Source of the DNA: Rhodothermus marinus
GTDB taxonomy: Bacteria > Bacteroidota > Rhodothermia > Rhodothermales > Rhodothermaceae
Direction: 5' to 3'
DNA: 64,000 nt
Assembly (NCBI RefSeq): GCF_009936275.1
Contig: NZ_AP019797.1
Location: 673,501 to 737,500 of the forward strand
Part shown: piece after piece, positions 47,881-61,116 of the stretch
How positions within the stretch are numbered: the first letter of the stretch is position 1
Layout of the letters: every line of letters begins with the position of its first letter
Position numbers and translations under genes: made by a program
The notes under the pieces: model-generated
What the model saw: only the letters and a program-made list of their open reading frames with translations
The model's database searches: none
Told to the model about the DNA's origin: nothing

Positions 47881-48678
47881 TTACGTGTTTTTTTCCGGCG
47901 GTTCGGCGGGCAAATCCAACCGATAGCCATATCCACGAATGGTGCGGATCACATTCTTGAGGCCATGTGCTTCCAGTTTCCGCCGCAGAAAATACATGTA
48001 AACGTCCACCATGTTGGTGCCGGTGTCGAATGTGATACCCCAGACGTGGGCCAGAATCTCGTGGCGAGAGCAGGCGACCCCGGGGCGCGAGAGCAAAAAG
48101 TCCAGCAGGGCAAATTCCCGGGGTGTTACCTCCACTTCTTGATCATCAATAAAGAAGCGATGGGCGGTGCGGTCAAGCCGCAGGCGTCCCACCTGTCGTA
48201 CATCATGGGGAAGGGTGGCGGCTGTGGCTTCCAAACGAAGGTCGCGCACCAGCCGCTGATAGGCTACCTGGTGTGCCTGGATCAAAGCAGGCTGGAGGGG
48301 AAAGGTCAGGGCGGCGTCGGCGCCGGCTACCAGGGCGGCAATCTGGGCTTCCGGGCCGGTTCGGCACAGAGCAATCAGGGGAGCAGTAGCCTGACGACGC
48401 AGGTAAAAGCCCAGCGTGTTGATCAGCGGTGCCTGCGCCAGTTGCCAGTCCACCAGCACAGCACTGGCCTGTCGGGCGGTTTCCAGCAGCTGCTGCCCCT
48501 GTTCCGACAGAGTATGTTGTGGGCCGCCCAGCGCCTGCCATCCGAACACCCACAGTTCGTGCGGAGGCGGACAACTCAACTGGACCGCTGTTACCAGCAG
48601 CGGATCATCGGTGATCAAACACAGCCGAAGTGGGGCTGCAGGCGGGGTGGTCGTGGACCCGGTAACATTACTTGGCAT
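47881..48678 (-). CDS. atypical OmpR-type response regulator
   Basis: This 265-residue protein ends in a clear winged helix DNA-binding domain: [40 protein letters not shown] and the recognition region [20 protein letters not shown] with [13 protein letters not shown]. The N-terminal 130 residues look like a receiver: an acidic pair D24-D25 and Asp77 in [10 protein letters not shown]. However, the switch lysine expected near residue 126 is absent ([11 protein letters not shown]), so phosphorylation-dependent switching may be lost. It overlaps the end of rny by 11 bases and is probably translated from the rny transcript. No kinase is adjacent. Confidence 0.85.
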
Positions 48679-50344
48679 AGGCGACCGAGCGCACCTCGCG
48701 AATGACCGTCACTTTGATCTGGCCCGGATACTGCATCTCGCTCTGGATCTTTTTCGAAATGTCGATCGCCAGCTGCTCGGCCTGGGCGTCGGAGACCAGG
48801 CTGTGGTTGACGATCACGCGCACCTCGCGTCCGGCCTGGATCGCGTAGACGCGCTCGACGCCCGGGAACGAGGCGGCCAATGCCTCGAGCTTTTCCAGCC
48901 GCTTGATATAGGCTTCCAGCGCCTCGCGACGGGCACCCGGACGTGCACCCGAAATGGCGTCGGCTGCCTGTACGATGGGCGCGATCAGCGTGGTCATTTC
49001 GATCTCGTCGTGGTGGGCACCCACCGCGTTGCACACCTCCGGATCTTCCTTGTACTTGCGGCAGAGTTCCATGCCCACCAGCGCATGCGGGCGGTCGATC
49101 TCTTCCTCGACGACCTTGCCGATGTCGTGCAGCAGCCCGGCACGGCGGGCTTTGTCGGCATCCAGACCCAGCTCGGCGGCGATCAGCGAGGCGATGCGGG
49201 CCGTCTCGATGGAGTGGGCCAGCAGGTTCTGGCCGTAGCTCGTGCGGTAGCGCATCCGGCCGATCAGTCGAATCAGCTCCGGATGCATGCCGTGCAGGTT
49301 CAGATCGATGACGGTCCGCTCGCCCGTCTCCATGATCTCTTCTTCGATCTCGGCCGTGGCCTTTTCGACCACTTCCTCGATGCGGGCCGGGTGGATGCGG
49401 CCGTCCTGGATCAGCTTGGTCAGCGCCAGGCGGGCGATCTCGCGACGGATCGGGTTGAAGGCCGAAAGGATCACCGCCTCGGGCGTGTCGTCGACGATCA
49501 CCTCGACGCCGGTGGCCGCCTCGAAGGCGCGAATGTTACGACCCTCGCGCCCGATGATGCGGCCCTTCATCTCGTCAGACTGGATGTTGACCACCGAGAC
49601 GGTGTTTTCGATGGCGTGGCTGGCGGCCGTCCGCTGAATGGCCGTCAGGATGATCTTGCGAGCCTCGCGGTTGGCTTTCATCCGGGCCTCGTCGCGGATT
49701 TCTTTGATCATGGAGGCCGCTTCCAGCTTGGCTTCTTCGACCATCTGCGCCATGAGCGCTTCCTTGGCCTCCTGGCGCGACATGCCCGCGATCTGCTCCA
49801 GCCGACGCAACTGCTCCTCCAGCGTCCGGTCCAGTTCGGCCTGTTTGACCGTCAGTTCTTCCTGCAGGCGGTTGACCTCGGCTTCCCGTTGCGCGAGCGC
49901 CTCCTGTTGGCGGCGCAGCGACTCGAACAGCGCCTGTGCCTGCTGATGAAGCGCTTCGGCCTGGCGGAAGTTGGCATCGGCCTCCCGGCGCAGTGCTTCG
50001 ATGGCTTCGGCGGCCTTGGCCAGCGTTTTCTCGCGCTCGTTGACGCGGAACGTGCGGCGGTTCAGCGCCTCCTGGCGTTCGGCAAGGCGCTCCTGCGCCT
50101 GCTGCAGCGCCTTGCGGGCTTCGGCCTGTTCCTGCTCGAACGCCTGGCGTTCCCGCCGGAGCGCCTCTTGCGCTTTTTCCAGATGTTCCTGCTGGTAGGC
50201 CTGGGCTTGGGCCTCCGCTTCGGCCAGGATTTTTCGAGCCTGCTCCCGGGCGGATTGCAGGGAACGGGTCAGCAGCCATCTATCCAGTGCAATGCCGGCC
50301 CCTACAGCCAGAAGCGCCAGGCCGGCTATCCATAACAGTTCCAT
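48668..50344 (-). CDS. rny: ribonuclease Y
   Basis: The 558-residue endoribonuclease has an N-terminal membrane helix ([20 protein letters not shown]). A coiled coil to about residue 230 is very rich in Glu, Gln and Ala. A KH domain ([20 protein letters not shown]) is followed by an HD domain with metal ligands in [27 protein letters not shown] and GAHHDEIE. It initiates mRNA decay at the membrane. The ATG at 50344 is chosen since it gives the anchor at the start; the frame upstream would read into the RNA gene terminator. The predicted 6S RNA and zapA lie upstream on the same strand. Confidence 0.95.
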
Positions 50345-50392: not shown

Positions 50393-50435
50393 TAAAAAAA
50401 GACGCCCCGACAGGTTCCGTAACCCTGCCGGGGCG
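50393..50435 (-). terminator. intrinsic terminator downstream of the 6S RNA candidate
   Basis: On the minus strand a stem closed by CGCCCCG/CGGGGCG, with an inner CAGGG/CCTG pairing, is followed by a run of seven T at 50394-50400. It lies after the RNA candidate and about 50 bases before rny, so it should end the zapA-6S transcript and separate it from rny. Confidence 0.82.
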
Positions 50436-50469
50436 TGGAAAAAATCCGGCCACAAACCTGCAGCCCGGG

Positions 50470-50630
50470 TTCAAGGAACCCCCTCATCGACACAGTGGGT
50501 GCCGCTCCGATCGTTCCGACTTCCTCGGCCCCTTCCGGTGCGGAAGGAGATCCCGACGAGGTCGGGACTGAGGCCTGTCGTCCGGATCGGAAGGAAGGCT
50601 CCCTCGCGTACAGGTGTTAGGTCCCTTTAT
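50470..50630 (-). ncRNA. ssrS: 6S RNA candidate
   Basis: This stretch between zapA and rny on the minus strand folds as a long imperfect hairpin. AAGGGACC at its 5' end (50627-50620) pairs with GGTTCCTT at its 3' end (50480-50473), then ACAC/GTGT, an open central region, and TCCGATC/GATCGGA, CGAC/GTCG and CCTC/GAGG. Two small terminal hairpins finish it. A closing stem, a central bubble and a terminal stem are the 6S RNA layout, which mimics an open promoter and binds RNA polymerase. The neighbourhood after zapA is the usual place for 6S, and an intrinsic terminator follows. Exact ends are uncertain by perhaps 15 bases. Confidence 0.6.
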
Positions 50631-50679
50631 TACGCGTGACTGCAGGCTTGCGCCGGCCTGCCTGATGCAGGCAGCGCCT

Positions 50680-51009
50680 TTATATTGCATCGCTGGCAGG
50701 CTGTTCCGGCGGGGTTGCGGAAGATTCCGGATGTTCCAGCAGCTCCAGCAGCTCCTGGATCGTTTCGTAGAGCGTTTCGTCCAGCTCCCGGAGCGCCTTC
50801 TGCGCTTCATGCAGCGCTTCGGCCAGCGAAAGCGCTACGATCACGGCGGCGGTCAGTTCGGACTGCTCCGGGTGTGCTTCCCGGAAGGCCCGCATTTTTT
50901 CCTCGACCATGGCGGCCAGGCGATACATCAACGCCTCGTCCTCCGCGCGCACCCGCAGCGGGTACCTGCGTCCCAGAATGGAGATCTGGATGGATTTTTC
51001 CAGCGCCAT
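50680..51009 (-). CDS. zapA: cell division protein ZapA
   Basis: This 109-residue protein has the ZapA pattern: IQISILGRRYPLRVRAEDEA at the start, then YRLAAMVEEKMRAFREAHPE and a long helix with VIVALSLAEALHEAQKALRE forming the coiled-coil dimer. The last 15 residues are variable. ZapA bundles FtsZ filaments at the division site. It follows a small coiled-coil gene by 15 bases on the minus strand and precedes the 6S RNA candidate, the familiar zapA-ssrS arrangement. Confidence 0.88.
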   Translation of the reverse strand: MALEKSIQISILGRRYPLRVRAEDEALMYRLAAMVEEKMRAFREAHPEQSELTAAVIVALSLAEALHEAQKALRELDETLYETIQELLELLEHPESSATPPEQPASDAI

Positions 51010-61042: not shown

Positions 61043-61116
61043 TGGGTCCTAGTGGATTCGAACCACTGACCTCCACGATGTCAACGTGGCGCTCTAACCA
61101 ACTGAGCTAAGGACCC
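61043..61116 (-). tRNA. tRNA-Val (anticodon GAC)
   Basis: The minus strand folds as a complete 74-base cloverleaf. The acceptor stem is GGGTCCT/AGGACCC, the D-arm contains AGCTCAGTTGGTTAGAGC, the anticodon stem CCACG/CGTGG holds the loop TTGACAT with anticodon GAC, and the T-arm contains GGTTCGAATCC. The discriminator is A. CCA is not encoded, as the following bases are CCC. A promoter and a terminator both fit closely, so it is a single-tRNA transcript. Confidence 0.97.

Follow-up and report, generated by a model that had tools for sequence, protein, structure and literature searches.

The window analyzed here is a 64,000-nucleotide stretch of a Rhodothermus marinus genome, which was searched as a single contig of 3.43 Mb. 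On its minus strand the genes pheT, a small SlyX-like gene, zapA and rny follow one another in this order, and the gap between the last two holds a structured RNA. Among the loci fetched for comparison, the nearest named relative is Rhodothermus sp. (L031), whose RNase Y is 92% identical. A tRNA at 61043-61116 (minus strand) is the sole match at the Rfam gathering level across the window (cmscan). The features of the locus, in the direction of reading of the minus strand, are as follows.

50680-51009, minus strand: zapA (PF05164, E 1.1e-17)
50680-50707, minus strand: probable promoter, GGAACAGC-N15-ATATAA, overlapping the zapA stop codon; from its recurrence in relatives
50650-50679, minus strand: leader hairpin between the promoter-like element and the closing stem; from sequence and fold
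50453-50651, minus strand: almost certain 6S RNA (ssrS-like) gene, 199 nt from closing stem to closing stem; from the R1 match, the fold and alignment A1
50638-50650, minus strand: closing stem P1, 5' strand, core AGCCUGCAGUC; compensatory changes in 9 of 11 P1 pairs, 91.5% of cells paired
50605-50636, minus strand: predicted alternative hairpin of the 5' bubble, CGCGUA...UACGCG, whose loop contains the P2 5' strand
50620-50627, minus strand: helix P2, 5' strand AAGGGACC; AAGRACY/RGUUCYU kept with double changes, in 3 of 7 modelled pairs
50604-50619, minus strand: central bubble, 5' side, with the P2 5' strand the likely pRNA template; from the homologous position in the RF00013 5' bubble
50497-50603, minus strand: apical (internal) stem ending in two hairpins, with CAGGCCUCA / GAGGAAG as its conserved core; helices 3-6 of the covariation test
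50481-50496, minus strand: central bubble, 3' side, ACUGUGUCGAUGAGGG; CCCAC..GUG kept across Bacteroidota
50473-50480, minus strand: helix P2, 3' strand GGUUCCUU, pairing with AAGGGACC; from covariation
50467-50481, minus strand: predicted alternative 3'-bubble hairpin, GGGUUC-CUU-GAACCC, which takes the P2 3' strand
50453-50465, minus strand: closing stem P1, 3' strand; from covariation and fold
50396-50436 (stem at about 50402-50436), minus strand: intrinsic terminator, 13-pair stem and T-run; from the fold
48668-50344, minus strand: rny, encoding RNase Y (PF12072; RNase Y N-terminal, KH and HD domains)

The 199-nt RNA folds at -97.2 kcal/mol (z -4.5), a value that none of 200 shuffled sequences equalled. 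An earlier note had placed an RNA at 50470-50630, and an RNA is indeed found there; its extent had to be revised, since a further, outer closing stem takes the gene to 50453-50651. The note's picture of a long hairpin with eight pairs, an open bubble, a nested stem and two small hairpins likewise holds except for one label. The eight pairs between AAGGGACC (50620-50627) and GGUUCCUU (50473-50480), including one G-U, are evident in both sequence and folds, but they make up the inner helix P2 and not the closing stem; the true closing stem, P1, lies outside the span first proposed. Beyond the bubble, an interrupted apical stem begins with GGGAGCC (50597-50603) opposite GGCACCC (50497-50503) and finishes in the two small hairpins. 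The strong intrinsic terminator noticed earlier is borne out by a fold of -28.0 kcal/mol (z -5.2), again with none of 200 shuffles equally good.

Comparative evidence for this structure came from the class to which Rhodothermus belongs. Of the 146 genomes of this class, 145 gave a zapA position, and rny was placed in 80 public loci; a conserved RNA was seen downstream of zapA in relatives. When 25 orthologous zapA-downstream gaps from Rhodothermales were aligned (alignment A1), RNAalifold yielded the 6S layout untold. Across the 40 pairs considered, P2 included, 93.9% of cells pair and 23 pairs show double changes; the number of double-changed cells is 143, as against 41.8 in shuffles. The covariation score is 0.437, compared with at most 0.141 when the partners are slid, and shifting them by a single column cuts pairing to about 50%. 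P2 itself covaries: the AAGAACC/GGUUCUU form appears as AAGGGACC/GGUUCCUU in Rhodothermus, by an A-U to G-C change, and as AAGAACU/AGUUCUU in three loci (L010, L021 and L024), by a C-G to U-A change. Over 72 Bacteroidota sequences, in an alignment fitted to the model, 720 double-changed cells were counted versus 201, and the apical core, which corresponds to the GCAAGCC / GGAAGC core of RF00013, is near-invariant. The rod of about 180-200 nt that characterizes 6S RNA, built of a closing stem, a central bubble and an apical stem, is found both in the folds and in the covarying consensus. A mini-helix that RNAalifold placed at 213-222 was discarded as a trace of the 3'-bubble hairpin.

A covariance model, R1, was built from the 25 Rhodothermales gaps alone. 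It scores the window gene at 183 bits (E 1e-43), by construction, as L001 is among its seeds. Within the class, 71 of the 146 genomes yielded one full-length copy each, at E 4e-45 to 1e-8. Sixty of these copies follow zapA on its own strand at a distance of no more than 1 kb, one is about 2 kb off and ten are elsewhere (coordinates compared by eye). Escherichia coli K-12 has the same order, zapA-ssrS. In a sample of the phylum, R1 matches 141 of 296 genomes, about 110 of them outside the class, with one full-length copy each and mostly at E 1e-18 to 1e-5. This pattern of one full-length match per genome is that of a single-copy, vertically conserved gene, with some lineages of the class lacking any match. 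A more sensitive search of 34 unmatched genomes, which doubles as a specificity control, returned nothing except one partial match at E 0.9. Neither R1 nor RF00013 found a 6S RNA in G024, G034, G036, G069, G104, G112, G145 (genus g7) or families f17 and f15, all of which have zapA. In Balneolaceae-like genomes (family f17), a motif search of the DNA that follows zapA gave an incidental match only; two loci of family f18 (L178 and L179) do carry the RNA. Lineages of the class without a recognisable 6S RNA may either have lost the gene or carry one that has diverged beyond reach. The RNA also moves as a unit: one locus (L013) keeps zapA with no rny behind, another (L032) keeps rny at about 2 kb from zapA, and in ten genomes the RNA lies away from zapA (G114, G097, G083, G065, G063, G061, G077, G006, G010 and G020). 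In named Bacteroidota loci, among them L106 and L108, R1 matches directly precede rny, and in L106 zapA comes before the RNA; the order zapA-6S-rny brought up in the earlier note does recur in other Bacteroidota.

The link to the known 6S families is indirect. Scanning the gap with the Rfam 6S models, the check that the earlier note had proposed and whose failure, taken literally, was to count against its reading, gave no 6S match either at gathering or at E<=10. The whole genome contains no RF00013 match (E<=10) and no RF01685 match, and RF01693 (Bacteroidales-1) is absent among the window matches at gathering and at E<=10. We ascribe this silence to sequence that has diverged too far. Weak gap matches to a snoRNA, Burkholderia sRNAs and NsiR1 were dismissed; they are far below the cut-off and most fall on the terminator. 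Class-wide, RF00013 (gathering cut-off 46.4 bits) has matches in 8 of 146 genomes; not one exceeds the cut-off, and all eight coincide with those of R1. The best of them is in L026, a member of A1 from the same order, which RF00013 matches at 46.3 bits (E 1.8e-8) over model positions 1-187 in register; L159, also of this order, scores 40.8 bits. Among 20 R1 intervals from other Bacteroidota families, 12 match RF00013 at E<=1, 11 of them over the full model length; one, from outside the class (L197, 47.1 bits), is the sole one of the 20 above the cut-off. In yet another family of the phylum, L201 has a weak RF01693 match at 149-357 and an R1 match at 148-353, the same interval. Rfam describes RF01693 as a suggested 6S RNA. 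That R1 and RF00013 pick out the same intervals, both in sister genomes and in other families of Bacteroidota, is what supports the 6S identity. The conserved core of A1 (GGGA.C, CAGGCC.CA, GGAAG, CCCA and P2) is common to L026 and the window RNA, and homology to 6S therefore passes to the window RNA, whose membership, as judged from sequence, is transitive, through relatives.

One might argue that the RNA belongs to a different class of trans-acting small RNA or structured RNA, 6S-like in outline only and beside zapA by chance. The empty Rfam scan of the window would fit such a view, as would the failure of R1 to match E. coli ssrS. We consider it very improbable, since RF00013 independently matches the same intervals in sister genomes in register over positions 1-187, and since P2, the bubble, the register of the apical core and the synteny are all shared with 6S RNA. 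The locus encodes a structured RNA of about 199 nt that is single-copy, ends at a strong terminator, is conserved beside zapA and is homologous to Rfam 6S. We are nearly certain that Rhodothermus has its 6S RNA gene (ssrS), in a divergent form, at 50453-50651 on the minus strand; RNA polymerase binding and pRNA synthesis can be inferred for it. Covariation, the coincidence of R1 with RF00013 and synteny together uphold the original reading of a 6S RNA between zapA and rny.

The signals flanking the gene bear on whether the RNA is a free transcript. Of 43 relatives, 14 carry a GGAAC-N18-TRTAA element upstream of the RNA, where 0.045 would be expected, and in 13 of them the spacer measures exactly 18 nt; the 43 include close kin, so the counts are not independent. 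Bearers include the window, L001-L008, L010, L021, L024, L032 and L034. The fuller pattern, GGAACWG-N16-TRTAA, occurs once in the window genome, at the 6S gene. In Rhodothermus the element overlaps the end of zapA, where coding constraint contributes; in L010, L021 and L024 the DNA that holds it is non-coding. Its place is taken in other families by a TTG...-N17-TA...T element. The GGAAC spacing resembles that of promoters read by ECF sigma factors, and the element could possibly be an alternative-sigma promoter, which we offer as a lead only. Hairpins comparable to the leader hairpin are present in L007, L010 and L021; we infer that the leader is probably removed by processing of a 6S precursor.

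RNase Y binds RNA, and the RNA sits between two genes of the same strand. One could accordingly envision a cis-acting element, either an rny leader serving RNase Y autoregulation or part of the zapA 3' UTR. We give this idea hardly any credence: the strong terminator separates the RNA from rny, many relatives have a promoter-like element of its own for the RNA, it follows zapA with no rny behind in L013 and adjoins rny at about 2 kb from zapA in L032, and in 10 genomes of the class it is not near zapA.

In other bacteria, 6S RNA silences RNA polymerase when growth stops. As a 6S RNA, the rod-shaped Rhodothermus molecule would mimic an open promoter and hold the primary-sigma RNA polymerase as growth slows. 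On outgrowth, the 5' side of the central bubble would serve the polymerase as template (AAAGGGACCUAAC) for a short pRNA; from this template the pRNA is expected near GUUAGGUCCCUUU, and it would be antisense to the 5' bubble, near GUUAGGUCCC. Its synthesis would break P2 and leave the 3' strand, GGUUCCUU, free to snap into the GGGUUC-CUU-GAACCC hairpin, which would set the polymerase free in the manner of E. coli-type release. In known 6S RNAs, pRNA synthesis unwinds P2, and both the 5' bubble and the P2 5' strand become paired to the pRNA; in E. coli, the P2 3' strand so freed makes a 3'-bubble hairpin that drives release (PMC8876501). A P2 helix beside the bubble with a rearranged state available to it, whether a 3'-bubble hairpin or a collapse helix, is predicted here as well. 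For nearly all of the 25 relatives, folding predicts a hairpin that contains the GGUUC strand, with pairing partners that vary from family to family: in Rhodothermus it is GGGUUC-CUU-GAACCC, in other families GAUAUGAAG...CUUCAUAUC. This combination of a conserved P2 and a family-varying 3'-bubble hairpin is what a switch would be predicted to look like. The 5'-bubble hairpin outdoes at least 95% of shuffles in about half of the 25 sequences. With free strands that may fold into hairpins on both sides, the open state of the bubble is not certain.

The Rhodothermus RNA shares with RF00013, which covers E. coli ssrS and B. subtilis 6S-1, the closing stem, P2, the central bubble, an apical stem with a GCC / GGAAG core, and the overall layout and register. 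It differs in a sequence too diverged for a direct match, in bigger apical hairpins and in a foldable 5' bubble. With E. coli it further shares the position downstream of zapA, an adjacency described in beta- and gamma-proteobacteria (PMC7641849), and a 3'-bubble hairpin of the E. coli type that uses the P2 strand; the downstream neighbour is rny where the known system has fau. 6S RNA was already known in Bacteroidota (PMC2864571; PMC7366714). That of B. thetaiotaomicron has been detected experimentally, together with its pRNAs (PMC7366714); R1 shares the L201 interval with RF01693, which itself has no match in the window. The 6S-Flavo family RF01685 is a 6S RNA of the same phylum (PMC2864571), yet it has no match in the Rhodothermus genome. 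Ms1 is an RNA polymerase-binding RNA described as structurally related to 6S RNA (PMC9130861). A Ms1-like RNA binding core polymerase rather than holoenzyme would agree with that resemblance, the binding mode being unreadable from sequence, but is barely conceivable here: Ms1 is described in another phylum, Actinobacteria, we found no evidence of kinship, the matches are to RF00013, and P2 and the 3'-bubble hairpin resemble those of 6S RNAs that template pRNAs.

Assignment of the gene to 6S RNA fills an annotation gap, as the Rfam 6S model misses the RNA in the window genome and in nearly all members of the class, and a single Rhodothermales model recovers one copy in about half of the sampled genomes of the phylum. 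The adjacency of zapA and 6S spans Bacteroidota and Proteobacteria, and 6S function becomes testable in a thermophile. It is tempting to speculate, on balance doubtfully, that a Bacteroidota-wide 6S lineage resides in an ancient zapA-6S neighbourhood, with its Rhodothermales branch under a dedicated GGAAC-N18-TRTAA promoter driven by a stress sigma factor. If this were true, a stress sigma factor would activate the very RNA by which the housekeeping polymerase is silenced.
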